A model generated the notes under the pieces. That model had not been told where the DNA came from. It saw only the letters and a list, made by a program, of their open reading frames with translations, and made no database searches. A DNA stretch of 64,000 bases, taken from positions 1 through 64,000 of the forward strand of contig JAAXKN010000018.1 in the NCBI GenBank assembly GCA_025612375.1, in the 5' to 3' direction. The stretch is from Ignavibacteria bacterium. Its GTDB lineage: Bacteria; Bacteroidota; Ignavibacteria; Ignavibacteriales; SURF-24. Shown piece by piece: positions 10,748 to 59,900 of this stretch (position 1 is the first letter of the stretch; every line of letters begins with the position of its first letter). Position numbers and translations under genes: made by a program.

Positions 10748-11608
10748 TTAGCCTAAATAGACCATAAGGTTTTTGCTGCGGGAAGCGTGTCTGAGTCTGC
10801 GGAGTGCTTTTTCCTTGATCTGGCGGACTCTTTCTCTTGTCAGGTTCAGTTTTTCGCCGAGTTCTTCCAAAGTAAGCGAGTTTTCGGTATCCAGGCCGAA
10901 GTAGTACCTGATTACTATAGCCTCTCTTTCAGTAAGAGTGGAAAGTGCGCTTTCAATTTCGCTTTTGAGTGATTCGCTCATTAAGCTGGTATCTGGTGCA
11001 GCCTCCTGTTCGTTAGGGATAACATCGAGGAGATTGTTGCTGTTGTCTTCACCCTGAGAAAAAGGAGCATCCATAGAGACGTGGCGTCCTGCGATTTCGA
11101 GGGCATAAGTAACCTCACTGACGTCCATATCCAGCTCTTTAGCCAGTTCATCTGCGCTAGGCTGGCGTTCGTATTCCTGTTCGAGTGAGTTGTATGCTTT
11201 ACCAATTTTATTAAGAACGCCTACTCTGTTAAGGGGCAAGCGGACGATACGTGAATGTTCGCCAATAGCCTGAAGGATTGACTGGCGGATCCACCATACA
11301 GCATAAGAGATAAACTTGAAGCCTTTAGTTTCATCAAATCTCTTTGCAGCTTTGATGAGGCCCAAGTTTCCTTCATTTATGAGATCTCCAAGGGAGAGGC
11401 CCTGGTTCTGGTATTGTTTTGCCACGCTGACAACGAACCTTAAGTTGGCTTTAGTTAAAGTTTCAAGAGCGGCCTGATCTCCATTCCTGATCCTCCGGGC
11501 TAACTCAATTTCCTGATCTGCGGTTAAAAGCTCTACCTTGCCAATTTCCTGTAAATACTTATCGAGAGACTGACTTTCCCTGTTAGTAAATTGCTTTGTT
11601 ATTTTCAA
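10748..11608 (-). CDS. rpoD: RNA polymerase primary sigma factor, short RpoD/SigA type
   Basis: A 286-residue sigma-70 factor lacking region 1.1, the usual form of the housekeeping sigma factor in Bacteroidetes-Chlorobi. Visible parts are region 1.2 ([20 protein letters not shown]), region 2 with the -10 recognition and melting segment [20 protein letters not shown] (about residues 95-114), region 3, and region 4 with the helix-turn-helix [20 protein letters not shown]. The start is TTG at 11608: the TAA stop two codons upstream in the same frame leaves no ATG, and AGGAG lies about 10 bases upstream. Many relatives begin MRQLKIT; here the Leu codon of that sequence has become the start. The gene is monocistronic with its own terminator. 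Confidence 0.93.
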
Positions 11609-27900: not shown

Positions 27901-30900
27901 TTTTCTGTTATAAGGAGTTTTAATTTTGAATCCTGTACTATATAGTCCAGTCTTTCCAAGGGATAATTCATATCGAGGGGGATATAGCATCCGCCGGACT
28001 TCAGTACGGCAAGGAGGCTTATAATGAGTTCAGGGGATTTCTTAAGTGCAATACCCACTGCAGTCTCCGGGCCCGCGCCTTTTTTCATGAGGTAGTGGGC
28101 AAGCTTATTGCTTCGGCTGTTCAGTTCGCCATATGTCATTGCGCGCCCCATGAAAATGAGCGCCGGACTATTCATTTTTAACGATGCAGTTGTTTCAAAG
28201 GCTTCATGGACCAACTGGCTGAGGCTGACATTTGCGGAGTGACCTTCAGCTAATTTTTCAGTAACCGCAATTTCCTCCTCACGGCTTAAAAGAGGTATAT
28301 CTGAAATTGCCAGATCGTTATTTATCAGCACGCATTCAATTATAGACTTATAGTGCCGGAAGAACATTTCAATTGTCTCTTTTTCAAAGAGGTCCGTGTT
28401 GTATTCAAAAGCCATGGAAATGCTCTCGTCCGACTTTTCAGCGATAAAAAGAGTGAGGTCAAATTCTGAAGTATTTAATTTAATTTCATGCGGAATAATT
28501 CTTATGCCGGGTGCAAGTTCATAATCTGTTAAAGGCATATTCTGCATTGCAAACATGACCTGGAACAGGGGTGAATGGCTGAGTGTCCTTTCGGGCTGAA
28601 GAGCATCAACGAGCATTTCAAATGGGAGCTCCTGGTATGTAAAGGCCTCGAGGGATGATTCTGTTGTTTCTTTTAAGAGATCAAGGAACTTCATATTCCT
28701 GCTAATTCTGCATCTTAAGACGAGTGTATTGACAAAAAATCCAATGAGAGCCTCAAGTTCCTCTTTACTCCTATTTGCTACGGGTGTGCCGATTACGATG
28801 TCCATTTGCCCACTCAGCCTGTAGAGCAGCACCTGGAAGCATGAGAGCATGGTCATAAACAGTGTCACACCACTTTGCCTGTTGAAGTCTCTTAGGGCTT
28901 TTACCAGTTCAGGATTTAGGTCCAGACTTATGTAGTCTCCCCTGTATGTCTGAATTGGGGGTCTCGGGTGGTCAAATGGGAGTTCAAGTGAAAGCGGGAT
29001 GCCTGAGAGCTTATCTTTCCAGTATGAAAGCTGACGCTCAAGGTTTTCACCCCTTAAGTACTCCCTCTGCCAGAAGGCATAATCTGTGTACTGAATATTA
29101 AGCTCAGGAAGAGAGGGTTTAGTGTTTAATAACAGCGCATTATACATAAGTGCAATTTCCCTCAGCATTATGCCCGAAGACCACTCATCTGTAATGATGT
29201 GGTGGAGTATCACTTTAATAATATAATCTTCTTCTGAAACTTTCAGGAGCGTGGTTCTGAACAACGGAGCCTCGGTAAGCGGGATATATCTTTGTGCTTC
29301 ACGAAGAGATATGTTCTCAATTATTTTATCCTGTTCTTCTGAAGGATATATAGACAGGTCTGTAAAGCCGATCATAATTTTCAGTTCAGGCGATATTACT
29401 GCCGAAGGCTTACCGTCTACTGTTAAAAACGAAGTTCTCAGAATTTCATGGCGCCTTACAACTTCGTTCAGGCTTTCTTCAAGAATATACTTATCCAGTT
29501 TTCCCTTTATTCTGTAAGTTTCAGGCATATTATAAAAAGAATTGCCCGGCTCAAGCTGATCCAAGAACCAGAGTCTTTCCTGGGCAAAGGACAGAGGTAT
29601 TAAGGCCTCACGCGGGGCAGGAAGAACAGGACGGCTTATGAGACCATTTTTCTTCATTTCTTCTTTTTCTACTATCTGCCCCATTCGGGCTACAGTAGGA
29701 TTTTCAAAAATGCTGCGCAAGGGAATTTCAATGTTAAAGGCAGTTCTTATTCTTGAGATCACCTGTGTAGCCAGAAGCGAGTGGCCCCCGAGCTCAAAAA
29801 AGTTATCGTTTATGCCGATCTTAGGGACTTTCAGGACGCCGGACCATATAGAGGCAATCACCCCCTCGGCTACAGATCGCGGCGCCACGTAATTTGATTC
29901 CATTTCCTTCATAATTTCATTTACGTCGGGAGCGGGCAAGGCGCGCCTGTCGACTTTCCCGTTCGGAGTCACGGGCAATTTCTCCAATGTGACAAAAGCC
30001 GAAGGGATCATGTATTCAGGAAGACGGTCCGCCAGGAAGTGCTTCAGTTCAGGCGCCGGGATAGGATTGCCGTCGCGTGTTACGATGTATGCAACTATTT
30101 TTTTATCCCCCGGAGTGTCCTCTCTTGCAATTACAACAGAGTCCCTGACGCTATCAAATTCCGAGACTGCGGTTTCAATTTCTCCAAGTTCAACTCTCAG
30201 TCCCCTGAGCTTAATCTGGTTATCCATTCTACCCAGGAACTCGACGTTACCGTCAGGGAGGAATCTTGCCATGTCGCCCGTTTTATAAAGCCTTTGTCCC
30301 GGAATTTTTGAAAACGGATCAGGGATAAACTTCTCCGCAGTTACGTCCGGGCGTTTAAGGTATCCTCTTGCCAGTCCTTTTCCCCCCACATAAAGCTCCC
30401 CTGTAAGTCCCGGTGCCAGGGGCTCAAGATTCCGATCGAGCACATAGAGAGTCATATTTGAAAACGGGCGTCCTATCGGGACCAGGCGGTCGTTAGGGAT
30501 GTCGAGGTTTGTGCTTTCAAAATAGGAGCTGTCAATTGTAGCTTCTGTAAGGCCGAAGGAATTAATGAGCCGGGTATTTTCCCCGCAGTATTTTAGGAAT
30601 TTCCTGTATTCACCCGCGTACCAGACGTCGGAGCCTGCAATCAAGAGGTGAAAGAAGTTCAGGTTATTGCCGCTAGTATCCAGGTACTGGATTAAATTCC
30701 TGAGGACCGCAGGGACGAATTCCGCAATGTTTACTCCCTCCTGCCTCATAAGGTTATAGAGTTTTTCGCCTTCGAGGAGTATTTCCCTGGGGGCAATTAC
30801 AAGTTTTCCGCCCGAGCACAGGGCGCGTGTCCAGTCCCCTGCAAAGACGTCAAAAGAAAAGCTGGCCATCTGGAGGTGGGAGCGGGCGCGTGTAGTAAGT

Positions 30901-32885
30901 TCATAAGCCATTTCCCAGGACTGATATGCATTAATGAGACTTGCGTGCTGAATCATAGTCCCCTTGGGCCTGCCGGTAGAGCCGGAGGTATAGATGACGT
31001 AAGCCAGATTGTTTTTATCTGATGGACAGACCGGGTTCATTATGCTTTCACGTGATATCTCATCCCACTCAGTGTCGATCAGGATAACGCTTCCATCATA
31101 CTCAGGCAGGATATTTCGTAAGTTACTTTGCGTAACAAGCGTCTTTACACCCGCATCCTCGAGCATAAAGCTCAGGCGGTCTACCGGGTATGAGGCATCC
31201 AGGGGGAGGTATGCCGCGCCTGACTTCAAGACCCCCAGGACACCAGTCATCATATCCAGTGAGCGCTCAAGCAGGATTCCAACTATGTCTTCAGGACCGA
31301 CGCCCTGTCTTATGAGCCTGTGGGCAAACTGGTTTGACCTTTCATTCAGCTCTCTGTAGGACAATGAACTCCCCTCAAAAGTAAGTGCAGTCTCATCAGG
31401 ACATAGTTCAGCCTGCTTTTCAAAGAGGCTTTGTATTACCTCATACTCTTCAAATTCCACTTCTGAATGATTCCACTCATAGAGCAGCATATTCCGTTCA
31501 CTTTCATCCATCATACTGAGGCTACTGATGCTTTCTTCGGGCTTAAGGAGTATGTGGTTTATCAGGTTTTCATAGTGCCTCAGCATACGGCTTATTGTAC
31601 TTTCATCAAAAAGGTCCGTATTGTATTCTATCGTGGCATCCAGCCCCTCATATGTCTCGGCCACAGTAAGCGTGATGTCAAATGTAGAGGTCCCCATATC
31701 AACGTCCAGCATCCTGAAGTCCAGGCCATGAAAGGGCTGTGAGTTCAAGGGGAGGTTCTGGAGTATGAACATGACCTGGAACATAGGCTGGTAGCTCATG
31801 TCACGCCCGGGCTGGAGCTTTTCGACCAGGAACTCAAATGGGAGGTCCTGGTTTTCATAGCCTTCCAGCGTCACTGTCCTTACTTTCTTAAGGTAGTCAC
31901 GGAAGGACACAGCTTCATCTATTTCTGTTCTGATTACAATTGTGTTGATAAAAAGGCCTATTATCCCCTCAAGCTCCCTCCTTGTACGGTTTGCAATCGG
32001 TGTACCTACACTGATGTCGTGCTGAGAGGAGTACTTATAAAGCAGTATCTGGAAAGAGGCCATGAGCGTCATGAAAAGAGTGACCTTCTCTTTCCGGCAC
32101 AGTTCCATTAAGCCATCCAGTGCAGACTGTGGAATTGTTCTGGACAAAGTTGCTCCGTTATTGGTCCAGACCGAAGGCCTCGGCCTGTCTGTTGGAAGCC
32201 TCAGGACCTGAGATGACCCCTCAAGCTTACGTTTCCAGTAGGAGAGCTCTTTTTCGAGCCTTTCTCCCTGCATGAACTCCTTCTGCCACATGGAGAAGTC
32301 GGCGTACTGAATGGTGAGCTCCGGCATGGGGGACGGGATCCCCAGGGAGAAAGCGTTGTAAAGCGTGGATATTTCCTGCACGAACAGGCCCATTGACCAG
32401 CCGTCCGAGATAATGTGGTGCATGACTACTATGACCACGTGATCCACAGGGCCTAATTCAAGAACCGTGACCTTAAGAAGCGGGTCTTTTAAGAGGTCGA
32501 AGGAGCACCTGGCTTTCTCCTTTAATATACGCTTAATTTCCAGTTCCTTTTCCTCTTCAGGCATCTTCTTAAGGTCCAGGACCAGGAAAGGGACATCCAC
32601 ACTTTTTGAGATCACCTGGACGGGCTTTCCCTCCAGGGATAGGAAGTTTGTCCTTAAGGCCTCGTGGCGTCTTACGATTTCACCCAGCACCTTCTTAAAT
32701 ACTGGTATGTCGAACTTCCCTTTTATCCTCATTGCCGAAGGTATGTTGTAGTACGGGCTTCCAGGCTCAAACTGATCCAGGAACCACAGCCTCTGCTGCG
32801 CGTAGGAAGCAGGGAAAACATAAACCTCCTCACTATTTCCAGGAGATTCTTCAGTATGCATATTGGTATCGGTATCATCAGTCAT
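24999..32885 (-). CDS. NRPS-6: C-A-T-C-A-T-E, modules M10 and M11
   Basis: 2628 residues. M10: C with HHIISDG (about 158), A with A3 GSTGRPKG (about 637), A4 FDVFAGD and A5 NSFGLTEATID; the pocket D-V-G-E-L-A-S-I-D-K is close to ornithine codes. T has GGHS (about 1033). M11: C with HHIITDE (about 1231, Glu in place of Gly), A with FDAAVTS and NEYGPTEAAVG; pocket D-A-T-K-V-G-E-V-G-K is close to Asn. T has GGDSI (about 2105). E domain has HHLLIDAVSW (about 2291) and ESHGR, then GWFTSIYPV. The first 1.8 kb is identical to NRPS-4, and 678 bp of the second C domain is identical to NRPS-2. The N-terminus (MTDDTDTNMHTEESPGNSEE) is acidic and unlike those of NRPS-2 and NRPS-4. Confidence 0.95.
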   Translation of the reverse strand: MTDDTDTNMHTEESPGNSEEVYVFPASYAQQRLWFLDQFEPGSPYYNIPSAMRIKGKFDIPVFKKVLGEIVRRHEALRTNFLSLEGKPVQVISKSVDVPFLVLDLKKMPEEEKELEIKRILKEKARCSFDLLKDPLLKVTVLELGPVDHVVIVVMHHIISDGWSMGLFVQEISTLYNAFSLGIPSPMPELTIQYADFSMWQKEFMQGERLEKELSYWKRKLEGSSQVLRLPTDRPRPSVWTNNGATLSRTIPQSALDGLMELCRKEKVTLFMTLMASFQILLYKYSSQHDISVGTPIANRTRRELEGIIGLFINTIVIRTEIDEAVSFRDYLKKVRTVTLEGYENQDLPFEFLVEKLQPGRDMSYQPMFQVMFILQNLPLNSQPFHGLDFRMLDVDMGTSTFDITLTVAETYEGLDATIEYNTDLFDESTISRMLRHYENLINHILLKPEESISSLSMMDESERNMLLYEWNHSEVEFEEYEVIQSLFEKQAELCPDETALTFEGSSLSYRELNERSNQFAHRLIRQGVGPEDIVGILLERSLDMMTGVLGVLKSGAAYLPLDASYPVDRLSFMLEDAGVKTLVTQSNLRNILPEYDGSVILIDTEWDEISRESIMNPVCPSDKNNLAYVIYTSGSTGRPKGTMIQHASLINAYQSWEMAYELTTRARSHLQMASFSFDVFAGDWTRALCSGGKLVIAPREILLEGEKLYNLMRQEGVNIAEFVPAVLRNLIQYLDTSGNNLNFFHLLIAGSDVWYAGEYRKFLKYCGENTRLINSFGLTEATIDSSYFESTNLDIPNDRLVPIGRPFSNMTLYVLDRNLEPLAPGLTGELYVGGKGLARGYLKRPDVTAEKFIPDPFSKIPGQRLYKTGDMARFLPDGNVEFLGRMDNQIKLRGLRVELGEIETAVSEFDSVRDSVVIAREDTPGDKKIVAYIVTRDGNPIPAPELKHFLADRLPEYMIPSAFVTLEKLPVTPNGKVDRRALPAPDVNEIMKEMESNYVAPRSVAEGVIASIWSGVLKVPKIGINDNFFELGGHSLLATQVISRIRTAFNIEIPLRSIFENPTVARMGQIVEKEEMKKNGLISRPVLPAPREALIPLSFAQERLWFLDQLEPGNSFYNMPETYRIKGKLDKYILEESLNEVVRRHEILRTSFLTVDGKPSAVISPELKIMIGFTDLSIYPSEEQDKIIENISLREAQRYIPLTEAPLFRTTLLKVSEEDYIIKVILHHIITDEWSSGIMLREIALMYNALLLNTKPSLPELNIQYTDYAFWQREYLRGENLERQLSYWKDKLSGIPLSLELPFDHPRPPIQTYRGDYISLDLNPELVKALRDFNRQSGVTLFMTMLSCFQVLLYRLSGQMDIVIGTPVANRSKEELEALIGFFVNTLVLRCRISRNMKFLDLLKETTESSLEAFTYQELPFEMLVDALQPERTLSHSPLFQVMFAMQNMPLTDYELAPGIRIIPHEIKLNTSEFDLTLFIAEKSDESISMAFEYNTDLFEKETIEMFFRHYKSIIECVLINNDLAISDIPLLSREEEIAVTEKLAEGHSANVSLSQLVHEAFETTASLKMNSPALIFMGRAMTYGELNSRSNKLAHYLMKKGAGPETAVGIALKKSPELIISLLAVLKSGGCYIPLDMNYPLERLDYIVQDSKLKLLITEKELASKFSGDVVETILIDTLWDEIEKESALNPALNRPLEDNLAYIIYTSGSTGRPKGTMITHRNLMNYLSWCISTYPLNEETGSVFHLSISFDAAVTSIYPALLSGSPVKIIPDGTDIYRLGQELFESGTVGTLKLTPAHMDVLQEQLKNAEANNDGNASLRLKAFVVGGENLTRKQISYYQDKYPETLIYNEYGPTEAAVGCIVYEASGLKTEGSVPIGRVIPGVYVCLLDENMNIAPVNTPAELYIGGLGLSRGYLERPDLTAEKFIPDPFSSAPGMRLYKTGDKVKLLRNGSIEFLGRLDEQLKLHGYRIEPGEIEAALMQHSAVKEALVLKHTTEEKLVAYCIPRNEHIPETKEIREYLEKKVPSYMVPSVFMFIEQFPLTVNGKIDRKKLPEPRLERAEITEGYIAPVTEAELLMAGIWQSVLNVDKVGITDNFFELGGDSIISIQLVSRANQAGFRLTPRDIFQNPTVKSLALAANGGRVIKAPQGIVSGQIPLSPVQHWFFEQSLYNIHHYNQSLLFEVEHTLDITLLETVLKEILIHHDALRICFNKNEETWEQFNRGIDKIAPLIRVDLSAQPEEELPRQIEKLSSEFQASLDISSEPLKMAYFDTGKNRKNYLFIAVHHLLIDAVSWRILLDDFQTAYTEASQLKKIRLPLKTSSFMDWSKRLNEYAQTPEVAAEFDFWQKLKNSEASAIPADYKSNDGNLEQTAGTLRNSLEAEDTGTLLKELPKVLNAEIMHPLLTALVRAFNSKTGKTGLLIELESHGRVDLFPDLDVSRTIGWFTSIYPVYLELGNSESLKESVEKVKEQMNAIPNNGIGFGMLKYLSKDKSLISEMQRLPKPEIAFNYLGQFDDRTSAESSILPAQPTKGEERSPHNKRSYLIEITAAVVNGRLNLEWTYNSKIYKENTMLLLANAYLEEIRAIVNLVRSQKIDLRAKDYSDLGWNTQEVDDILSVINRMKE
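28356..29033. repeat. Repeat C1 copy a (M11 condensation domain)
   Basis: 678 bases with no difference found against 57380-58057, same orientation, offset 29,024. It codes for about 226 residues of the C-terminal half of the C domain and stops at the C-A linker (EMFFR). Near-identity continues about 60 bases beyond the right edge. Confidence 0.9.
31009..32807. repeat. Repeat CA copy a (M10 C domain plus A-domain N-terminus)
   Basis: About 1.8 kb with no difference found against 45446-47244, same orientation, offset 14,437. Three mismatches appear in the 55 bases left of 31009, after which the copies diverge. It covers the whole C domain and the A domain up to motif A3. Confidence 0.9.
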
Positions 32886-32963: not shown

Positions 32964-35900
32964 CTATTTAATTAAGTCTGACTTCACGGCGCGGTAAGAA
33001 TCCCTGGAGACGCGTTTAATCGTTTCATCTTTCCTTTCGTCATTTCCTTTTTCCAGCAGTTCAATTTCCAGGGCTAAATCCGCAAATACAGGTTTTTCAA
33101 ACACCAGTCTTAAAGGAATTTCAATTCCCACAGCCTCTCTAATACGGCTTACAAGCTGGGATGCCAATAATGAGTGGCCGCCAAGCTCAAAGAAGTTATC
33201 ATAGATCCCGGCTTTTTCGAGGTTTAAGAGTCCGGAGGCAATATCCGTAACTGCTTTTTCAGTGCGGGTTCTTGGTGCAGTATATTCCACTTTTTTAGCC
33301 GCATGCCCCGGATCCATTGCGGCAAGGCCATTCCTGTCAATTTTACCGCTGGTGTTAAGTGGCATTTTCTCAAGCCTTATGATGAACTTTGGCAGCATGT
33401 ACTCGGGGAGCTTGGTCTTAAGGTATGCCTGAAGGCCCGAAGTGTCAAAGTCCTCTTCTTCAGCTACAATGTATGCAACAAGGCGGCTGCCGCCAATGTT
33501 GTCTTCCCTTAAGACTACCACGGCTTCTTTTACACCGGCATAGCTCCTTATCTGCGACTCAATTTCCTGGAGCTCTATTCTAAATCCCCTGAGCTTTATC
33601 TGGCTGTCCATCCTTCCTAAGAATTCAATCTTCCCGTCTTTTAAGTATCTTACCATGTCTCCTGTTCTATAAAGGCGGCTTCCCTTTTCACCCGAGAAAG
33701 GATCGGGCAGGAACTTCTCTGCCGTAAGTTCCGGCTTTCCGAGGTATCCCCTTGCCAGCCCTACTCCTGCAATGAAGAGTTCTCCAGGGGCACCAACAGG
33801 TACCGGGTGCATTGACCTATCCAGTATGTATGTCCTGAGGTTTGATATTGCCCTTCCGATCGGAGGCGTCTGTGAGAGATCCATGTCCTCTAAGGAGCAC
33901 TCATGGAGTGTAGTGCAGACCGTTGCCTCCGTGGGACCGTATGCGTTGAAGTACTTCCTCCCCTTTGACCACTTTTCGATCAGGCTCCAGGCTGCGGCCT
34001 CACCTGCCGTTACAAGTACGTCCAGCTCCGATAAGATGTCATAAGGAATAAATGACAGTACGGAAGGAGGCAGAGTAAGCACATTTATGCCGTTATTTTT
34101 CAGATAGTCCCTTAGTTTTTCACCTGAAAGCGTGGTATCCCTACGGCACAGATACAAAGTGGAACCGCTTAAAAGCGCCATGAATATTTCCCAGACAGAG
34201 GCATCAAAGCTGAGTGAGGAGAACTGCATTACCCTTTCGCCCGGAGAAAGACTGAAGGATTCCTTCTGTACATAAGACAAATTAACAACACCCTTATGGC
34301 TGAGCATGGTACCTTTGGGTTTGCCGGTAGAGCCTGAAGTGTAGATCACGTATGCAAGGTTTTCAGGATGTATTTTTACTTCAGTATGGTTCCCCCCTGA
34401 TGAATATAATTCCTCTTCAGAATCCATCAGGATTACCTTCTTTGACGTCACAGGTATTTTATCCAATAGGTGTTTCTGTGTAAGTATCAGCTTTACATCG
34501 GAATCTTCTATCATGTAGCTTATTCGGTCCACAGGGTACGAGGGGTCTATGGGAAGGAAGGCTCCTCCTGACCTAAGTACAGCCATTATGCTTACTATCA
34601 TATCAACTGACCTTTCGGATACAATTGCCACTATGTCCTCACGGCCGATCTGGTTACGCATAAGAAGCGAAGCCAGTCTTTCTGAGCGGATATTTAAGCC
34701 TGAATAACTTAGTTCCTCCAGGATTGTGCCGTCAGAGGCTGCCATAACAACTGAATTACAGGCAGGGTTTTCATTTACTACCTCATTAAACCTTTCGACA
34801 ACAGACACAGGAGGGTACTGCATGGCTGTACTGTTCCAGCCGCGGAGGATTTTATCCTCTTCAGCGGGCAGGAGTATGTTCAAATCTTCAATTGTTACGT
34901 CAGGATCCAGAAGGACAGATTTAATAATATTTTTATAATGCCTGAGCATCAATTCAATTGTTTCGGGCTTAAAAAGGTCGGAATTATATTCCAATGCCAT
35001 CATTAAACCTTCTTCCGACTCATTTAATACCATTGACAGGTCAAAATTGGAAGTAGTGCTTCTAATGGGGTAAGAAGAAATCTGCAGGTCCTCAAGGTCA
35101 AATCCGTTTGTCCGGAAGTTCTGGAAAACGAACATCACCTGAAACAAAGGAGACCGGCTCAGATCCCTCAGAGGGGCAACGGCCTCGACAACCTTTTCAA
35201 AAGGCACGTCCTGATTTGCGTAAGCCTCCAAAGAAGTTGTCCTTACTTTCTTCAGGAGTTCTTTAAATGTGAGCCCCCGTTCTAATTCAGTCAGCAGTAC
35301 GACGTTGTTTACAAAGAAGCCAATGAGGTTTTCAATTTCAGTTCTGACCCTGCCTGCAACCGGGGCCCCGATGGAAATATTATACTGTCCCGAATACTTG
35401 TGCAGAAGTATATTAAATGCGGCAAGGAGGCTCATAAAAAGAGTAGCGCCTTCTTTCCGGCTAAGCTCAAGGAGTTCTTTAAGGGTATCTGTGTCCAGAA
35501 TATCCGAGGCAGAATTTCCGTTAACTGAGAGGATAGGTTTCCTGGGAAAATCTGTATAGAGCCCGCTTACCTGCGGGATATTACTTAATTTATCTTTCCA
35601 GTAATTAAGCTGCTGAGAAAATTTTCCTGCCTCATACATACGGTTCTGCCAGATGGAGTAATCTGTGTACTGCAGGTTCAGTTCAGGAAGCGCAAGGTTT
35701 TTATTTTTAATGAGGGCTTCATAAGCCGAGGCCACTTCATTAACTAATATTGACATAGACCATCCGTCTGCAATTATGTGGTGTATGACAAAAAGGATAA
35801 TGCATTCATCCTTTGACAGGAGGAGGATATGGATCCTAAAAAGGGGGCCTTCCTGCAGGTTAAATGGTCTGGACGTTTCCGTGTCCATGATCCGGTCAAC

Positions 35901-38900
35901 TTCCTTTAGCCGGTTTTCACCCGCAGTGTCCTTTAAGTCGGTGATTTTTATATCCGCCCTAAAGTCATGGTTAATAACCTGGACCGGCTGCCCGTCAATT
36001 TCCCTGAACAGAGTTTTAAGCACCTGATGGCGTCCCGCAACGGTGTTAACAGCCTCCGTAAGGAGGCTAAGATTTATTTCCCCGATAATTTTTACAGCAG
36101 CAGGGATATTGTAGGAGGTCATACCGGGCTGGAGTTTATCCAGGAACCAAAGTCTCTGCTGAGGGAAAGACAAAGGAATTTTCTCCGCCACGTCATATTT
36201 AACCGGTTTATCCGGGACTTCCATGTCAGACCTGACAATACGGTCAATTCTTTCAGCCAAGGCAGAAAGTGTTTTTTCTTCAAAGAGGATGTTAAAAGGA
36301 ATTTCAATACTAAAAGCGTCACGGATTCTGGAGATAAGCTGAGTTGCAAGGAGTGAATGCCCGCCAAGTTCAAAGAAGTTATCTCCAGCAGCCACTTTGT
36401 CAAGCTTAAGAATATCCGCCCAGATGTTGGCAAGAATTTCCTCAGTAACTGTTTTCTGTTTTTCGTGTCCGGAATTATCCTGTTTTACTTCAGGCTCAGG
36501 AAGGCCGCTTCTGTCAATTTTCCCGCTGGTGTTAAGTGGCATTTTCTCAAGCCTTATGATGAACTTTGGCAGCATGTACTCGGGGAGCTTGGTCTTAAGG
36601 TATGCCTGAAGGCCCGAAGTGTCAAAGTCCTCTTCTTCAGCTACAATGTATGCAACAAGGCGGCTGCCGCCAATGTTGTCTTCCCTTAAGACTACCACGG
36701 CTTCTTTTACACCGGCATAGCTCCTTATCTGCGACTCAATTTCCTGGAGCTCTATTCTAAATCCCCTGAGCTTTATCTGGCTGTCCATCCTTCCTAAGAA
36801 TTCAATCTTCCCGTCTTTTAAGTATCTTACCATGTCTCCTGTTCTATAAAGGCGGCTTCCCTTTTCACCCGAGAAAGGATCGGGCAGGAACTTCTCTGCC
36901 GTAAGTTCCGGCTTTCCGAGGTATCCCCTTGCCAGCCCTACTCCTGCAATGAAGAGTTCTCCAGGGGCACCAACAGGTACCGGGTGCATTGACCTATCCA
37001 GTATGTATGTCCTGAGGTTTGATATTGCCCTTCCGATCGGAGGCGTCTGTGAGAGATCCATGTCCTCTAAGGAGCACTCATGGAGTGTAGTGCAGACCGT
37101 TGCCTCCGTGGGACCGTATGCGTTGAAGTACTTCCTCCCCTTTGACCACTTTTCGATCAGGCTCCAGGTTGCGGCCTCGCCGCCCGTAACAAGCACCTCC
37201 AGATCAGGCAGATCCTTATCAGGCAGTACAGATAAATATGAAGGAGGCAGAAGGAGAAAATTAATTTTTTGTTCCGACATTAGATTCATCAATCTCCCGC
37301 CTGAGAGGATGTCTTCTTTATCGCACAGGCAGAGTGTACTGCCGGTAAGAAGCGACATAAAAATCTCACAAATTGAGGCATCAAAGCTGAAGGATGAGAA
37401 CTGCAATACCCTTTTGCCCGATGAGAGCCGGAGTATTTCTTTTTTAACGCGGGCAAGGTTAATCACCCCTTTGTGGCTGAGCATGGTACCTTTGGGTTTG
37501 CCGGTAGAGCCTGAAGTGTAGATCACGTATGCAAGGTTTTCAGGATGTATTTTTACTTCAGTATGGTTCCCCCCTGATGAATATAATTCCTCTTCAGAAT
37601 CCATCAGGATTACCTTCTTTGACGTCACAGGTATTTTATCCAATAGGTGTTTCTGTGTAAGTATCAGCTTTACATCGGAATCTTCTATCATGTAGCTTAT
37701 TCGGTCCACAGGGTACGAGGGGTCTATGGGAAGGAAGGCTCCTCCTGACCTAAGTACAGCCATTATGCTTACTATCATATCAACTGACCTTTCGGACACA
37801 ATTGCAACTATGTCCTCCAGGACAAGGCCGTTACTAATAAGGTTATGGGCCAGCCGGTCTGCCTTTTCATCCAACTCCCTATAGCTTATCTTTGAGTCAT
37901 TTTTGCAGCATGCAGTCATATTCCCATAAATGGCGGCAACGGACTTAAAGCATTCAGGGATAGAGATGTCCTCAAGCGCCAAGGCATCGGCACCATGGCT
38001 GAACTCTCTTAAAATTCTGTTACTTTCTTCATCTGACAGAATACTTATTTCGTTAAGTTTCTTTTCAGCGTTCAGCGAGACACTGGAAAGCAGGGCCTTA
38101 AAGTGAGAAAACAGGGCTTCAATTTCCTCACTGTCAAAAAAGGATTCATCATAAGCCATTTCAATTGAAATTTCCTCTCCGACCCCGAGAGCTATAGTCA
38201 GAGGATAATTGGTCCTGGTATGGGACCTTACTTCATCGATTGAAATTTTCTCTTTCAGGCGGCTTAAGGCCGCAGAAGCAGGATAGTTTTCAAAGACAAT
38301 AATGCTGTCGAAAAGCGGGACCTCACGGGGTATCCGGCTCCAGCCCTGTATATCTGTTAAGGCGCAGTACTCATATTTTCTCTGCTCGGCCTGCTGGAAC
38401 TGAATATTTCTAAGCCAGGCGGCAAGAGTAATTTCCGGTTCAATTTTAATCCTGACGGGCAGAGTATTTATAAACAGCCCCACTGTGGAATCTATATTCA
38501 GCAAGTCTGTGGGTCTTCCCGAGACAGTAGAGCCGAAGACTATGTCGTCATGACCGGTGTAAGATGCGAGGATCAAGGCCCAGAAACCCTGGAAAAGAGT
38601 ATTTATTGTCAGCCTGTTTTTCCTGCAGAATGCATTAACCAGTGAGGAAATTTCACTGTTTATTTCCACATTCCTCCTCATGTATCCCCCTTCCCTTTTA
38701 CGGAAGGCGCGGGGTCTAAAAGAAGTATTATTGCTCAAGTCTTCAAGAGTAATTCTCCAGAACGCTTCGGCTTTTTTAATATCCTGCCTCTGCAGCCAGG
38801 AAATATAGTCCCGGAACGGGCGGACTACATTAAGCCGGGCGGTACTGTTATTTATCAGCGCATTATAGACTTCAAAGACCTCCTTAATAATTATCTGTGC

Positions 38901-39344
38901 GCTCCAGCCGTCGAAAAGGATGTGGTGCTGAGTCCATATGAAGTAGTGAAGATCAGTATCTGCTTTAATGATAACCAGTTTCATCAGAGGAGCGTTTTCC
39001 AGGGCGAAACCTTCTTCTACTTCCAGTCTCAGCAATTCTTCAAGTTTTTCTTCTTTTCCGGCCTCATTCTGCCAGTCTAGAATCTTAAAAGGGAGTTCAA
39101 CATCTTTATAGACTATCTGGAGGGGCTCATCCACATCTTCCCACATAAAAGCGCTTCTGAGGACCTGATGACGTTCGGCAACTTTTTCCCAGGCGCACTT
39201 AAAGGAGTAAATATCCATAGGACCATGAAAAGTACAGCTCGTCTGCTCTATATAAACGCCGGTTTCAGAAGACAACAGGCTGTGGAAGAGCATACCCCTC
39301 TGCATCGGGGAAAGAGGATAAATGTCTTCAATATTAGTATTCAT
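32964..39344 (-). CDS. NRPS-5: C-A-T-C-A-T, modules M8 and M9
   Basis: 2126 residues. M8: DCL-type C opening IYPLSPMQRGMLFHSLL with HHILFDG (about 140); A with A3 GSTGKPKG (about 616), A4 FDASICE, A5 NAYGPTEATVC; pocket D-A-C-L-V-G-A-V-C-K, not assigned. T has GGHS (about 995). M9: C with HHIIADG (about 1190); A with FDASVWE and the same A5; pocket D-A-W-T-V-A-A-V-C-K, a Phe-like code. T has GGHS (about 2055). The two A domains are identical over two blocks and differ almost only between A3 and A5. The ATG lies one base after the NRPS-4 stop (TAAAATG), with AAAGG upstream, so translation is coupled to the gene that ends in E. The C-terminal tail is basic (RVSRDSYRAVKSDLIK). Confidence 0.95.
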   Translation of the reverse strand: MNTNIEDIYPLSPMQRGMLFHSLLSSETGVYIEQTSCTFHGPMDIYSFKCAWEKVAERHQVLRSAFMWEDVDEPLQIVYKDVELPFKILDWQNEAGKEEKLEELLRLEVEEGFALENAPLMKLVIIKADTDLHYFIWTQHHILFDGWSAQIIIKEVFEVYNALINNSTARLNVVRPFRDYISWLQRQDIKKAEAFWRITLEDLSNNTSFRPRAFRKREGGYMRRNVEINSEISSLVNAFCRKNRLTINTLFQGFWALILASYTGHDDIVFGSTVSGRPTDLLNIDSTVGLFINTLPVRIKIEPEITLAAWLRNIQFQQAEQRKYEYCALTDIQGWSRIPREVPLFDSIIVFENYPASAALSRLKEKISIDEVRSHTRTNYPLTIALGVGEEISIEMAYDESFFDSEEIEALFSHFKALLSSVSLNAEKKLNEISILSDEESNRILREFSHGADALALEDISIPECFKSVAAIYGNMTACCKNDSKISYRELDEKADRLAHNLISNGLVLEDIVAIVSERSVDMIVSIMAVLRSGGAFLPIDPSYPVDRISYMIEDSDVKLILTQKHLLDKIPVTSKKVILMDSEEELYSSGGNHTEVKIHPENLAYVIYTSGSTGKPKGTMLSHKGVINLARVKKEILRLSSGKRVLQFSSFSFDASICEIFMSLLTGSTLCLCDKEDILSGGRLMNLMSEQKINFLLLPPSYLSVLPDKDLPDLEVLVTGGEAATWSLIEKWSKGRKYFNAYGPTEATVCTTLHECSLEDMDLSQTPPIGRAISNLRTYILDRSMHPVPVGAPGELFIAGVGLARGYLGKPELTAEKFLPDPFSGEKGSRLYRTGDMVRYLKDGKIEFLGRMDSQIKLRGFRIELQEIESQIRSYAGVKEAVVVLREDNIGGSRLVAYIVAEEEDFDTSGLQAYLKTKLPEYMLPKFIIRLEKMPLNTSGKIDRSGLPEPEVKQDNSGHEKQKTVTEEILANIWADILKLDKVAAGDNFFELGGHSLLATQLISRIRDAFSIEIPFNILFEEKTLSALAERIDRIVRSDMEVPDKPVKYDVAEKIPLSFPQQRLWFLDKLQPGMTSYNIPAAVKIIGEINLSLLTEAVNTVAGRHQVLKTLFREIDGQPVQVINHDFRADIKITDLKDTAGENRLKEVDRIMDTETSRPFNLQEGPLFRIHILLLSKDECIILFVIHHIIADGWSMSILVNEVASAYEALIKNKNLALPELNLQYTDYSIWQNRMYEAGKFSQQLNYWKDKLSNIPQVSGLYTDFPRKPILSVNGNSASDILDTDTLKELLELSRKEGATLFMSLLAAFNILLHKYSGQYNISIGAPVAGRVRTEIENLIGFFVNNVVLLTELERGLTFKELLKKVRTTSLEAYANQDVPFEKVVEAVAPLRDLSRSPLFQVMFVFQNFRTNGFDLEDLQISSYPIRSTTSNFDLSMVLNESEEGLMMALEYNSDLFKPETIELMLRHYKNIIKSVLLDPDVTIEDLNILLPAEEDKILRGWNSTAMQYPPVSVVERFNEVVNENPACNSVVMAASDGTILEELSYSGLNIRSERLASLLMRNQIGREDIVAIVSERSVDMIVSIMAVLRSGGAFLPIDPSYPVDRISYMIEDSDVKLILTQKHLLDKIPVTSKKVILMDSEEELYSSGGNHTEVKIHPENLAYVIYTSGSTGKPKGTMLSHKGVVNLSYVQKESFSLSPGERVMQFSSLSFDASVWEIFMALLSGSTLYLCRRDTTLSGEKLRDYLKNNGINVLTLPPSVLSFIPYDILSELDVLVTAGEAAAWSLIEKWSKGRKYFNAYGPTEATVCTTLHECSLEDMDLSQTPPIGRAISNLRTYILDRSMHPVPVGAPGELFIAGVGLARGYLGKPELTAEKFLPDPFSGEKGSRLYRTGDMVRYLKDGKIEFLGRMDSQIKLRGFRIELQEIESQIRSYAGVKEAVVVLREDNIGGSRLVAYIVAEEEDFDTSGLQAYLKTKLPEYMLPKFIIRLEKMPLNTSGKIDRNGLAAMDPGHAAKKVEYTAPRTRTEKAVTDIASGLLNLEKAGIYDNFFELGGHSLLASQLVSRIREAVGIEIPLRLVFEKPVFADLALEIELLEKGNDERKDETIKRVSRDSYRAVKSDLIK
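33346..33991. repeat. Repeat A-Cterm copy a (M9 A domain)
   Basis: 646 bases identical to 36523-37168, offset 3,177. One mismatch at 33345/36522, then 11 more identical bases to the left. It covers A5 to just before A10. Confidence 0.92.
34297..34619. repeat. Repeat A-Nterm copy a (M9 A domain)
   Basis: 323 bases identical to 37474-37796, offset 3,177. It covers A2 to A3 and ends just past GSTGKPKGTMLSH. Two mismatches and then divergence follow beyond 34619. Confidence 0.92.
36523..37168. repeat. Repeat A-Cterm copy b (M8 A domain)
   Basis: Identical partner of 33346-33991. Confidence 0.92.
37474..37796. repeat. Repeat A-Nterm copy b (M8 A domain)
   Basis: Identical partner of 34297-34619. 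Confidence 0.92.
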
Positions 39345-39345
39345 T

Positions 39346-42300
39346 TTATGCCTTTGATGTTCTATTATTTATCCGGTTAAGCACCTTGTCAAATTTCTCA
39401 CGGTTTAAGTGAGCCAGAGGGAAATCGGAGCCTGACAGTTCCACCTGGCCATGTTCAGAATGTTCAACAATAAGCCTCAGTTCGTCCATGAACAGGTCCG
39501 AGAATCTTTTAATTTTACTCAGGCTGAAAACTTTGGAGCAGTATCTCATCTGCATATAGAAGCTGCCCCCGGAAACAAAGCATACTATGTCTATCAGGTA
39601 TCTTGAGTAGTTTAATAAACCTCTTTCAGGCCCCCTGTTATAGACTGAGGGGGCAAAAAGGATGTTTTCTTCCTGAGGCAGTTCATTAAGCTGTCCCAGA
39701 TAGTTAAATGAAATTTCGCTTTGCGGCAGTGAGTTAAATTTTCTTTTTACTTCATCGTCCAAAGACAAATATTTTAATATTCCGTAACCTATACCATGAC
39801 GCGGGACACTCCGGAGCTGTTCTTTTATCTCCTTTAAGGATTCCAGGGGATAGACTGAGGACTTCAGGTCCAGCAGAACAGGATATAAACAGGTAAACCA
39901 GCCGAGAGTTCTGGAGAGGTCAATACTTTCATCAAAGGTTTCTCTTCCGTGCCCTTCGAGGTCAATCATGAGAATTCTCTTTTCAGACCAAAGAGAATAC
40001 GCCCTTGTAAGTGCCGTAAGGAGCACTTCGACTACATTGCAGTTAAGCCTCTTCAGAGCCTCATGAATTAAGGATTGTGTTACCCCGCCGCTTGAATTAA
40101 CCTCGCTGTAATCCTTTTCGGCGTATTTCACTTCAGGAGGCACGCCTTTAAGAGGAGTAATCTTGTTATAAGGCTGTTTAAGCCAGAATATGATCTCCTG
40201 CCTCAGCTCTTCAGAAGAGGCATGGCGTATTAAATACTCACTCCATTTTCTGTATGAGGCCGATTTAGGGGGCAGCAAAACGGGCTTCTGCTTTTTTATC
40301 TGGCTGTAGGCGCTTAATATGTCTTCGAGCAGTATACGCCACGAGACCACGTCAATAACCAGGTGGTGTGCCGCAATTAATAAATTATCCTTCTTACCCT
40401 CCCCCAGTTTGAAGTACGCAAATCTTATTACTGGGCCTTTTTCAATATCAAGGCTGCTTTGAATTTCTGAGGCATGAGCTTCAATTTTGTCTTTCAGTCT
40501 TTCTTCAGGAAGAGACGACAAGTCAAAAACCCTCAGCGGGAGCTCTTTAATGTCCGGCATAACCTGCATTATCCAGCGGCCATCTTCCTGAATAAAAACC
40601 GAGCGCAGGACATCGTGGTGCTTAAGGATGGCTCTAACTACCTCTTCAAGCATATTAAGTTCAACCCTGTCGTTTATTTCGAAGAAGACCGACTGGTTCC
40701 AGTGGTCTTTTTGGACAAGGTTCTGCTCAAAAAATGAGCTCTGCACGGGAAGAAGGTTTATTTTTCCTCCTCTAAATTCCTCTTCAGCATTATCTTCACC
40801 TGACTCTTCGTTTATGAGAAGAGCCATCTGAGCTATTGTCTGGTGTTTGAAAAGGTGTGAAGGCTGAATTTTTAACCCCCTTTCCCTTGCCTTAGCCACC
40901 ACCTGGATGGCCAGGATGGAGTCGCCGCCAATTTCAAAGAAGTTGTCGTTAAGGCCTACTTCTTCAAGACCCAGGACATTCTTCCAGACTTCAGAGAGAA
41001 TTCTTTCACTTTCAGTCTCAGGGCTCTTATTCTCATCCTGGAGCTTATCTGCCGCGGGCTCGGGCAGAGATCTGCGGTCAATTTTACCGCTTGGGGCGAG
41101 GGGCATCCTGTCCAGTTTGACAATTGAAGGAGGCACCATATAGTCCGGGAGCTGATGTCTTAAGAATTCCTTTACCTCAGCCGGTGTAAATTCAGGGAGG
41201 CTGCCCTCCGGGCTCGGCTTAAGTGTAATGTATGCCGCAAGGGAGGCCTGCCCTTTTTTCCCTTCCCTTAGAATGACAACTGCATCCTTAACTTTTTCAT
41301 GCTGAAGGAGCACCTGTTCAATTTCGCCAAGCTCAATTCTAAAGCCTCTGAGTTTAATCTGGCTGTCGATTCTTCCCAGGAATTCAATTGTTCCGTTTTC
41401 ATTATACCGTGCCAGGTCGCCTGTCCTGTATAGCCTTCCGCCCACTCTTCTTCCGTAGGCATCAGGAATGAACTTCTCTGCCGTAAGCTCCGGGCGCTTC
41501 AGGTATCCGCGGCCCACGGAAAGACCCCCTATACATAGTTCCCCTTGGGCTCCAACAGGAGCAAGGTTAAGGCTTGCGTCAAGGATGTAGAGTTCAACAT
41601 TCAAAATAGGCCTGCCTATGGTCGGCCTCTCAGGAAAGTCCTTTACTACTGCAGCTGAAGCCGCAACCGTGGTCTCAGTAGGGCCGTATTCATTAAAGAA
41701 ATCGCACCTGTCAACTTTAAGCATCTCTTTCCAGGCAGCCTCATCCAGGGCTTCCCCGCCTGCAAGCACAAGTGAAGGCCTCCAGGTGTCTTTATTAAAA
41801 AGTCCAGTAGATAGAAACACTTTCAGCAAGGTCGGGACGCAGTCTAGTATGTCTATTTTATTTTCCACTATGTATTCCGAAAGCGCCAGTGCGTCGCGCC
41901 TAAGGTCTTCCGGCGTAAGATAAATTGTATTGCCATAGAGCATAAATGTAAGCTGGCGAATGGAAGCGTCAAACATGATGGTTGAGTTAAGGGTTACCCT
42001 TGCCGGGCCCGGGCTGAAATACGAGGTATACATTGCACCTGTTGAGGCGTACAAATTGTAAAAATTTTCATGCTGGACGATGGAGCCCTTGGGTTTACCC
42101 GTGGAGCCTGAGGTATAGATCACGTAGGCGATATTTTCAGGGCATGCTTCAGTTATTGGATCGTCGCCTGATTCATTTGAAATTTCAGGCCACGCGCTGT
42201 CCATCAATATAACTTCAAAACCTTTTCCAATAAGTTCATCCTTAAGCCCCTCTTCTGAAATGAGGAGTCTGACGCCCGCATCCTTCAGTATATAGTCTAT

Positions 42301-45300
42301 TCTCCCCTTTGGATAAACGGGGTCCAGCGGCAGGTACGCCGCACCGGACTTCAGAATGCCTAGTATAGCGGTAAAAAGGTCTGTACTCCTGCCTGTAAGC
42401 ACTCCAACTATTTCGTCTTCTCCGGCTCCTTTTTTCCTCAGGTAGTAAGAAAGCATATTAGCCCTTCGGTTCAGTTCGCCAAAAGTAATGCTTCCATTTT
42501 GCGCTACAACGGCTGTTCTTTCAGGATTTATTAATGCCTGCTCCTCAAAGATTCTATTGATCAGCCTGACCGGAGAGACTGTTTCGGCCTCTTTATCCCT
42601 CCTGTTCCACTTCCAGAGGACCTCTCCTTTTGACTTCCGGCTTAGGAGCAAGGGAAGATGATTATTGTTTTTACCGGAGGAGGCACTTTTATCATGGGCG
42701 CCATTTATTAAATTACGTAGAGTTTCTTCTTCTTCCTTAGCACTAAGCAGCGGTATCTCTTTAATTTTTACCTCGGGGTTTAATGCCACGCATTCAAGGA
42801 TCCTGCCGTATTGGCGGAGCATCATTTCCATGGTTTCTTTGTCAAAGAGGTCCGTGCTGTATTCGAATGCCAGCCTCAGGCCGTCTTTAGTCTCAACAGC
42901 TGAAAGAGTAATGTCGTACTTTGAAGTATTTACCGGGATATCGATCTGGCGCACATCTATGCCGCTATTGGAGGAGCTGTTATCCGTCTGAAGGTTCTCC
43001 GAGAAAAACATAACCTGGAAAAGCGGAGAGAAGCTCATGGAGCGTTCCAGATGAAGAGCGTCTATTATCATTTCAAATGGCAAGTCCTGGTAAGTATAAG
43101 CTTCAAGAGCACATTCCTTTGTCTGCCTCAGGAGGTCAGAGAATTTCATCTTGTCTGAGATATTTACCCTGAGGACCAGTATATTGACAAAGAATCCGAT
43201 CAGGTCCTCAATGTCAGCCCTGTTTCTGTTGGCAATTGGTGTTCCGACCAGGATATCAGACTCTCCGGAGTACCTGTAGAGCAGGACCTGAAAAACAGAC
43301 AGCAAGGACATGAACAAAGTAACGCCGTAGTTTCTGTTTATTTTATTTACCTCAAGGCCGAGTTTTCCGGGTAATTCGAGGCTGATAAAACCGCCTTTAT
43401 AGCTTTGGACGGCAGGCCGGGGCCTGTCGGTTGGGAGTTCAAGGATCTGAGGGCTGTCCTTTAGTTTTGCTGTCCAATATTCTATATGCCTGCTCAGGTT
43501 TTCTCCCGAAAAATATTTTCTTTGCCAGGCGGCATAGTCGGCATATTGAACCGGGAGCTTAAGGACTGCCGGGTGTTCCCCATTTTCAAGTTGGTGGTAA
43601 TAATTCAGCAATTCACTGAACATTTTCCGGGAGGACCATCCGTCGGTTATGATATGGTGGAATATGAGGATCAGTACAGATTCATCCTCAGACAATCTTA
43701 TTAAGAGCGCCCGGAATAAGGGCAGAGTATCCAGCACGAACGGTTTTTGAGCTTCTTTGCTGATATAATCCTTTATTAAAACCTCCTGTTCTTCCCTGCT
43801 TAATCCACCGGCTTCAATTACACGCACAGCAACATTATATTCCGGAATAATTTTCTGATAAGGTTTACCTTCGCGGGACAGGAAAACCGTCCTTAGGATT
43901 TCATGGCGACTGGTGATAATGTTCAGGCTTTCCTCAAGCATTTCAACATTCATTTTCCCATATATTCTCAGGGCTTCCGGAACGTTATAAGCTATATTTC
44001 CAGGCTCAAGCTGATCTAAAAACCAGAGCCTTTCCTGGGCAAAGGACAGAGGAATAACCGTGCCGCGCGAAACAGGCAGTATTGCACTTCCTGCAAGGCC
44101 GTTTTTTTCCATTTCCGCAGCTTCAACTATATGGCTTAAGCGGGCCACAGTCGGATTTTCAAAAATGCTGCGCAAAGGAATTTCCATGTTAAATTCTTTT
44201 TTAATTCTGGAGATCACCTGTGTAGCCAGGAGCGAGTGGCCCCCGAGCTCAAAAAAGTTATCGTTTATTCCGACCTTCGGCAGATTCAGTACGCCAGCCC
44301 ATATTGCAGATACTACCTCTTCAACCACAGTGCGCGGAGCAGCGTAATTAGATTCCATTTCCTTCATAATTTCATTTATGTCGGGAGCGGGCAAGGCTCG
44401 CCTGTCGACTTTTCCGTTCGGAGTTACCGGAAGCTTCTGAAGAATTACAAAAGCCGAAGGGATCATGTATTCAGGAAGGCGTTCACTAAGATAACGCATG
44501 AGCTGAGGCTTTTGAAAGGCATTGCCGTCGCGTATTACTATGTATGCCACGATTCTTTTTTCTCCCGGAATGTCCTCTCTTGCAACGACAACAGAGTCCT
44601 TTATGTCGTCAAATTCTAAAACGGCATTTTCAATTTCACCCAGTTCAATGCGCAGTCCCCTGAGTTTAATCTGGCTGTCGATTCTTCCCAGGAATTCAAT
44701 TGTTCCGTTTTCATTATACCGTGCCAGGTCGCCTGTCCTGTATAGCCTTCCGCCCACTCTTCTTCCGTAGGCATCAGGAATGAACTTCTCTGCCGTAAGC
44801 TCCGGGCGCTTCAGGTATCCGCGGCCCACGGAAAGACCCCCTATACATAGTTCACCGGGCACTCCAACGGGAGCGAGGTTAAGGCTGTTGTCAAGAATGT
44901 ACGCCTCCACATTAAGAGGAGGCTTTCCGATTACAGGTTTTTCAGGGGAGTCTTTTACACTGCAGATTGCGGCATCTACTGTAGTTTCTGTGGGTCCGTA
45001 GGTGTTGAAGAAATCGCAACCTTCAATTTTAAGCATTTCTTTCCACGCGGCCTCATCCAGGGCCTCCCCGCCTGCAAGAACAAGTGAAGGCTTCCAGGTG
45101 TTTTTATTAAAAAGCCCATTGGAAAGAAACATTTTCAGCAAAGTAGGGACGCAGTCAAGTATATCAATTTTATTTTCCACTATGTATTCCGAAAGCGCTA
45201 CCGGGTCGTGCCTTACATCATCTTTCGGGATGTAAAGCCTATTGCCGTAGAGCATGAGCATAATCTGCTGAATTGAGGCGTCGAACATTATTGTTGTGGT

Positions 45301-56900: not shown

Positions 56901-59900
56901 TCGAGCGGCAGGTATCCTGCTCCTGACTTCATGACAGCAAGGATTGAAGTAATAAGGTCTGTTTTCCTTCCAAGCAGGATTCCAATTATATCATCTGGAG
57001 AGGCTCCTTTTTTAATCAGATAGCGGGCAAGCAGGTTGGCTCTTCTGTTGAGTCCACCGAAAGTAAGGCTTTCATTTTCTGAGACCACGGCAATTCTATC
57101 TGGAGAACTGAGGGCCTGCTCTTCAAAGAGCCTGTGGAAGAACTGTGCTGTGCCATCTAATTCCTTTTTGTCGAGCCTGTTCCAAAGGCTCAGGACTTTT
57201 TTAGTTGACTCCTCTTTAAGGAGCAAGGAAGAGAGCTCAGTGTACTTACTTTTCTTTGGGGTATTCCCATCTATCAGGCACTCTAAAGTTTCTTTCTCCT
57301 CTTCCGCGCTTAAGAGCAAGATGTCTTTGATCTTAGTTTCAGGACTATCTGTTACGCTCTTCAATATGTTTTCAAAATTCCGGAAGAACATTTCAATTGT
57401 CTCTTTTTCAAAGAGGTCCGTGTTGTATTCAAAAGCCATGGAAATGCTCTCGTCCGACTTTTCAGCGATAAAAAGAGTGAGGTCAAATTCTGAAGTATTT
57501 AATTTAATTTCATGCGGAATAATTCTTATGCCGGGTGCAAGTTCATAATCTGTTAAAGGCATATTCTGCATTGCAAACATGACCTGGAACAGGGGTGAAT
57601 GGCTGAGTGTCCTTTCGGGCTGAAGAGCATCAACGAGCATTTCAAATGGGAGCTCCTGGTATGTAAAGGCCTCGAGGGATGATTCTGTTGTTTCTTTTAA
57701 GAGATCAAGGAACTTCATATTCCTGCTAATTCTGCATCTTAAGACGAGTGTATTGACAAAAAATCCAATGAGAGCCTCAAGTTCCTCTTTACTCCTATTT
57801 GCTACGGGTGTGCCGATTACGATGTCCATTTGCCCACTCAGCCTGTAGAGCAGCACCTGGAAGCATGAGAGCATGGTCATAAACAGTGTCACACCACTTT
57901 GCCTGTTGAAGTCTCTTAGGGCTTTTACCAGTTCAGGATTTAGGTCCAGACTTATGTAGTCTCCCCTGTATGTCTGAATTGGGGGTCTCGGGTGGTCAAA
58001 TGGGAGTTCAAGTGAAAGCGGGATGCCTGAGAGCTTATCTTTCCAGTATGAAAGCTGTCTATGGAGGTTTTCACCCTTTAGGTACTCCCTCTGCCAGAAG
58101 GCATAATCTGTGTACTGTATCTTAAGTTTAGGCAGAGCGGGTTTTCTTCCGGAATTAAGCGAATTATAAATCTCCGACAATTCTCTTAGAAGCAGCCTGG
58201 AAGACCACTCGTCCATAATAATATGGTGAAAGACGGCAATAAGTATGTATTCTTTTACCGACAAAGCCAATAGACGGATCCTAAAAAGAGGTGCCTTGTT
58301 TAGTGGGATAGCCTGCACAGATTCTTCTTCAGAAATTTTTCCGATTAAGTCATTCTGCTTATCCTCTGGCAGCCTGCTTATGTCCGTAATGCCGCATTTA
58401 ATTTTTATTTCCGGAGTCACACTGGCTCTTGCTTTCCCGTCAATATTTGAAAAGGAGAGTCTTAGCACTTCATGGCGGCTGATAATTTTGTCAAGGCTTT
58501 TTTCAAGCAGGTATGTATCGAGTTCTCCTTCGATCCTGAACATTACAGGGAGGTTATAAACTGCCTTACCCGGTTCCAGCTCTTCCAGGAACCACATCCT
58601 TTCCTGTGTATATGACAGAGGAGTCATCCCCCTGCGGGGTGCCTTTTTAATTGAAGAAGGTGAAGAGCCCCCTTTGTTTAAAAATTTACCGGGATAGGAT
58701 TTTAAGAGATAAGAAGACAGTTCAAGCAGCGAAGGATTCTCAAAGACAGCCTTAACAGGAATATTTTCCCTGAATCCGGAGCGGATCCTGTTTATAAATA
58801 TTGCGGCTTTAACCGAATCGCCTCCAAGTTCAAAGAAATTATCCTTCATTCCTATATTTTTTATGCTGAGGACATTTTCGCATATCTTAACCAGTTCACA
58901 CTCCAGGGGATTTGAAGGGGCAATGAACTCATGGACAAACGCAGAGTGCTCAGGCTTGGGAGCGGGAAGCATTTTCTTATCAATTTTTCCTGAAGGCATG
59001 AGAGGGAACTCATCGAGAGTAATGAGATAAGACGGGATCATATATTCCGGAAGTTTCCCCCTCAGCATCTGTTTTATTGACTCTGGAGAAAAGACCTCTT
59101 TATTTTTTGGGATCAGGTAAGCCGTAAGCCTCCTGTCGTTTATTGCATCCTCGCGGACAATTACAAGAGATTCCTTAACGCCCGGGAGCTCATTTATTGC
59201 AGATTCAATTTCACCCAGTTCAATTCTAAAGCCCCTGATTTTAACCTGTGTATCGGTGCGCCCCATATATTCCAGGTCCCCTGTATGCGTAAAGCGCACA
59301 AGGTCGCCTGTTCTGTAGATCCTTTCACCCGGTGTATTTGCGAAGGGATCGGGTATAAATTTTTCAGCCGTGATTTCAGGCCTGTTAAGGTATCCTCTTC
59401 CCAAGCATTCACCCGCAATAAAGAGCTCCCCTGTTACGCCTATTGGCTGCGGATTAAAATACTGATCGAGGACATAAAGGCGGACGTTATTTAATGGTCT
59501 TCCGATTAAGGGCTGGCTTTCCGAACGGTTGACGTGGGCTGCAGTTACTTCAACTGTAGTTTCAGTAGGGCCGTACATATTGAAGATTTCAGTTTTACGG
59601 GCTTTTGCAAGCTCTTTCCAGACATTGGAGCTGATCGCTTCCCCGCCCGGGAGGATTAGGAAAGGACAATATTTATTTTCTTCCAGAAGTCCGCTTTCAA
59701 GCAGCATTGTAAGCTGTGAAGGGACGCAGTCGAGGACATCGATTCTATGTTTTCTTATATAGCTTACAAATGCACGCCCGTCGCGTCTTATTTCATCCGG
59801 GAGAATATATATGCAGTGTCCTTTTGTAATCAAGATCATCTGCTGAATAGATGCATCGAATATCAGGGAGGAATTCATCATGAGTTTCAGAGGTTTCTTT

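Follow-up and report, generated by a model that had tools for sequence, protein, structure and literature searches.

When two neighbouring adenylation (A) domains are identical on both sides of a diverged specificity core, was it the core that moved or the frame around it? The question is raised by modules 8 and 9 (M8 and M9) of a 12-module NRPS line in an Ignavibacteria bacterium; the window analysed is the whole stretch of 64,000 nucleotides at the start of contig JAAXKN010000018.1. Both modules are coded by one minus-strand gene (32964-39344), the 2126-residue product of which has the order C-A-T-C-A-T (two Pfam Condensation, two AMP-binding, and two PP-binding domains in the translation). 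The M8 copy of the A-domain unit lies at 36.5-37.8 kb and the M9 copy at 33.3-34.6 kb. The order of the C, AMP-binding (PF00501), AMP-binding_C (PF13193), and PP-binding domains, the presence of the A3, A4, A5, A7, A8, and A10 motifs in the translation of M8 and M9, and a match to GrsA (1AMU, E = 1.9e-124) identify these as NRPS adenylation domains.

Exact alignment at an offset of 3177 gives two uninterrupted runs, bearing out the identical blocks described in an earlier note on this DNA. Because both modules are coded on the minus strand, the 323-bp block comes first in the protein and forms the N-terminal frame, A2 to A3 (37474-37796 in M8, 34297-34619 in M9), and the 646-bp block comes last and forms the C-terminal frame, A5 to A10 (36523-37168 in M8, 33346-33991 in M9). 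The 1274-bp unit has 119 mismatches, every one of them in the 305 bp between these blocks (37169-37473 in M8, 33992-34296 in M9), a clustering with a log10 probability of at most -80 by chance, so that the diverged segment of equal length in the earlier note is also as described. The two cores align without gaps, at 61.4% identity by codon and 57.4% by amino acid, and beyond the 1274-bp unit M8/M9 identity goes down to background. The segment, said to run from just after A3 to about 20 residues before A5, is found to start 50 nt past the first base of IYTSGSTG and to end 16 residues ahead of AYGPTE, which by motif offset is about GrsA residues 204-306 (about 102 residues). Equal divergence along the whole A domain, which the earlier note named as the case against itself, is not what one finds, as 0 of the 969 bp in the flanks differ. 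The pocket codes read by motif alignment, DACLVGAVCK for M8 (residues 1-6 of the code inside the core) and DAWTVAAVCK for M9, likewise differ only at positions 239, 278, and 301, all inside the segment, as that note had it; positions 322, 330, 331, and 517 belong to the identical frame, which rules out any M8/M9 difference there.

The M9 code is of the Phe type (DAWT[IV]AA[IV]CK), which we take to be that of Phe-activating domains such as GrsA. This type is found in both M8 and M9 of a second genome of the genus (G001) and not in M8 here. A difference in substrate choice between M8 and M9 is thus predicted, by code only. In two more distant relatives, G004 and G360, where module equivalence was inferred from the neighbouring codes DVGEIGSIDK and DATKVGEVGK, the code of M9 is again DAWT[VI]AAVCK. 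Position 8 has DAATI[IV]GVGK in these two genomes, the Phe type in G001, and DACLVGAVCK here; by these codes, it is the changeable one of the pair.

The line as a whole has 12 A domains, an initial FAAL-like ligase, and a terminal thioesterase, and genes for a phosphopantetheinyl transferase and an MFS exporter border the cluster. It is a lipopeptide assembly line, and its product is expected to be a fatty-acylated 12-residue peptide. A FAAL-type loading module at the line start is seen in locus L105 (1-3549) with 62105-63991 of the window (minus strand). The protein at 10748 is presumably RpoD-like, and T9SS sorting domains occur among the encoded proteins, both of which point to Bacteroidota.

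The flanks and the core of M8 and M9 contrast sharply at silent sites. The flanks have no differences (95% upper bound 0.31%), whereas the core has pS 0.71, dS about 2.3, and dN 0.35, with 18 of 33 comparable fourfold sites differing (none in the flanks) and 60 of 117 mismatches of the codon-aligned core at third positions. Judging by these sites, the divergence of the core is old and near synonymous saturation. Between the species, the M9 core has diverged (pS 0.64 against its ortholog in G001) no more than the flanks (pS 0.69-0.74), so the core is no mutation hot spot. Hence, recombination separated the histories of core and flanks, and recombination of some kind almost certainly produced the mosaic. 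In the tree of the C-terminal flank, M8 groups with M9 within this genome and within G001; in the tree of the core, M9 groups with the identical M8 and M9 of G001 (support 99/97), and M8 of this genome falls outside the group. A pocket-bearing internal segment with a history unlike that of its flanks, in silent sites and in trees, is what one finds in A-core subdomain recombinants. Built from about 100 residues, two trees disagree on the deeper position of the M8 core, and a group of M8 and M9 of this genome alone is not rejected (AU test, p = 0.32). The M8 core comes closest to the M9-type cores of its own genus (57% amino acid identity). As the M9 cores of the two species are more alike (75%), the M8 core lineage is probably older than the species split.

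The genome G001 has a syntenic cluster (M3 to M12 on contig C14) and provides a control for the flanks, within a genus sample of two species with draft assemblies. There, M8 and M9 are identical over 1382 consecutive bp, from upstream of A2 to A10 and including the core. Orthologs of the two genomes are saturated at silent sites (dS above 1), with 66-73% amino acid identity in the flanks. Just outside the tract, M8 pairs with M8 of G001 and M9 with M9 of G001, whereas inside the flanks each module pairs with the neighbour in its own genome. Homogenisation was therefore recent and separate in each lineage, and by this pairing the M8 and M9 A domains are recently and independently homogenised in both. 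The motif GKIDR is the right edge of the homogenised stretch in both species. Paralogous tracts that are closer within a genome than to their orthologs, in more than one lineage, are the mark of concerted evolution by gene conversion.

The probable order of events, in our view, is that an older M8 core was retained while gene conversion recently replaced the frame on either side of it. M8 and M9, which are 3.2 kb apart, would undergo recurrent conversion of their A domains, from about A2 to A10, each event travelling along shared sequence and halting where homology fails. The last event in this genome would have rendered the two A domains identical on either side of the 305-bp core and left the core itself unconverted, its prior divergence (61% DNA identity) giving a poor heteroduplex and its loss altering the residue at peptide position 8. 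M8 would thus keep its own specificity core within a frame common to M9. In the sister species, conversion would have passed through the core and left a pair of Phe-type modules. If conversion halts at the loss of homology, the edges near A3 are explained without any donor. We infer that conversion is the mechanism, that the core was retained and not imported, that selection or heterology spared it, and that the substrate changed. The other core type (DAATI[IV]GVGK) in M8 of the more distant relatives counts against retention, as it implies that the present M8 core entered or changed earlier.

A second recent tract of the cluster has a similar edge. A stretch of 1863 bp, covering the C domain and the A domain up to A3, is 99.7% identical between M10 (30952-32814) and M6 (45389-47249), both on the minus strand. 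Compared with G001, each copy matches its M10 rather than its M6, so M10 overwrote M6 in this lineage. This tract stops 44 nt after the A3 start and spares the M6 core, and the left edge of the M8/M9 core lies 50 nt after it. It is possible, and we suggest it tentatively, that conversion routinely rewrites frames throughout the cluster up to a fixed edge after A3, with heterology of the cores, rather than imports, keeping the peptide positions distinct. The M3 C domain (57380-58621, minus strand) is partly replaced by M11 C-domain sequence (28356-29597, minus strand), the two tracts agreeing at 84% and including 300 identical bp; the M3 tract is a mosaic of its own ortholog and the M11 type. 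Over 300 bp, the C-terminal parts of the A domains of M7 (41317-41616) and M6 (44629-44928), both on the minus strand, agree at 90%; M6 has a core and C-terminal part that look M7-like and a front derived from M10.

A true core swap, in which M8 first became a full copy of M9 and an outside 305-bp core then replaced its own, is a possible but rather doubtful account. The required full-copy state exists in G001, this is the usual form of the A-core recombination published so far (PMC8097286, PMC7486941, PMC9205934), and the M8 core groups loosely with cores of two other loci (G004_C48 and L024_11834). However, one would expect so recent an import to have left a close donor somewhere, and the search for one with the core segment, which the earlier note proposed, gave none. 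The genome itself has no second NRPS locus, all its NRPS A domains belonging to this cluster, and no donor of the M8 core was found in it, nor among 164 genomes of the order, 391 of the class, and 395 of the phylum, nor among 484 A-domain stretches from 79 other loci; matches to plasmids are all below 60%. An identifiable core donor, usual for A-core recombinants though not strictly required, is thus missing from these collections, where the best relatives are the M8/M9-type cores of the genus itself, at 57%. Of the claim that the core was "swapped," the recombination mosaic is supported, its edges framing the specificity core and all three pocket differences lying inside; the import of the core is placed in doubt by the lack of a donor in these searches, by the old kinship of the M8 and M9 cores, and by the sister species, which shows that recent and repeated events in this cluster are copyings from one of the two modules to the other. 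A frame copied around a core that stayed in place accounts for the observations no less well.

An assembly artefact, with repeats collapsed or cores put in the wrong module, is very improbable. In its favour, the genome is a draft of 140 contigs known from assembly alone, and the repeat is exact over 646 bp; against this, the copies of a 1.86-kb repeat on this contig have stayed distinct (3 mismatches and a 2-base indel in 1863 bp), and the independent genome G001 has the same two modules homogenised. The assignment of cores to modules in the present assembly also agrees with the variability of position 8 and with the Phe-type M9 of G004 and G360, and the same pattern occurs in a Rickettsiales chromosome recorded as complete (see below). 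A recent duplication of the A domain, after which only the core diverged fast by adaptation, is rejected as next to impossible even though the three differing pocket residues are all in the core, because selection on the protein would not saturate silent sites in the core (the third-position and fourfold differences given above) and leave none in the flanks.

A-core recombination is described as the chief way in which NRPS diversify (PMC8097286, PMC7486941). The kind of event seen here is already known, and M8/M9 adds a clean new example. The cases of Baunach et al. 2021 (PMC8097286) and Calcott et al. 2020 (PMC7486941) are similar in having tracts inside the A-core, often between modules of one cluster, with the C-A linker and A-sub untouched. 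Unlike these, the DNA that moved recently in M8/M9 may be the frame, which takes in A-sub up to A10; the identity on both sides is 100%, and the same pair is independently homogenised in a sister species. In the part of PMC8097286 that deals with microcystin synthetase, McyB-A1 and McyC also show A-domain copying within a cluster with a left edge at A3, but there the replaced tract runs from A3 to A9 and takes in the specificity region, whereas the M8 and M9 units are identical except in the core. The A domains of hormaomycin (Cruesemann et al. 2013, as related in PMC8097286) recombined within one line and are a model for subdomain exchange. The duplicated A domains of wollamide wolG1/wolG2 share with M8/M9 a drop of identity over the specificity region and an intragenomic recombination (PMC9205934), but have their donor in the same genome, where none was found here; that study also warns that gene conversion blurs such histories.

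What is new here is a clean pair, a short segment, a control in a sister species, and the argument that it may be the frame, and not the core, that moved. Flanks that are identical around unlike cores need not imply movement of the core, since the frame may have been copied, and recent copying between neighbours keeps rewriting the assembly line. A natural pair of A domains differing in only about 102 residues, with an identical pair in a sister species, allows a test of whether this segment alone sets specificity. This region also serves in engineered subdomain exchanges (PMC11355689), and the pair opens to testing a narrower swap boundary, at about GrsA 204-306.

The pattern was surveyed in 373 A domains (772 within-locus pairs, full-length scoring), with both flanks at least 85% and the core below 75% identical. 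Only the M8/M9 pair and modules of one other NRPS match, among loci chosen by similarity, which makes this no census. The other NRPS is that of the Ca. Megaira endosymbiont of Mesostigma viride (CP084576.1), which appears to be a strong parallel case. Its identical N-terminal frames of 561-1550 bp end 43-50 nt after the A3 start, as in M8/M9, and its cores share 51-54%; unlike M8/M9, the diverged segment extends beyond A5, and the organism (Rickettsiales) belongs to an unrelated phylum. The modules at 2293, 7066, 11860, 18674, and 23468 of this locus (L073) have identical frames and three different cores, and some of them are wholly identical.
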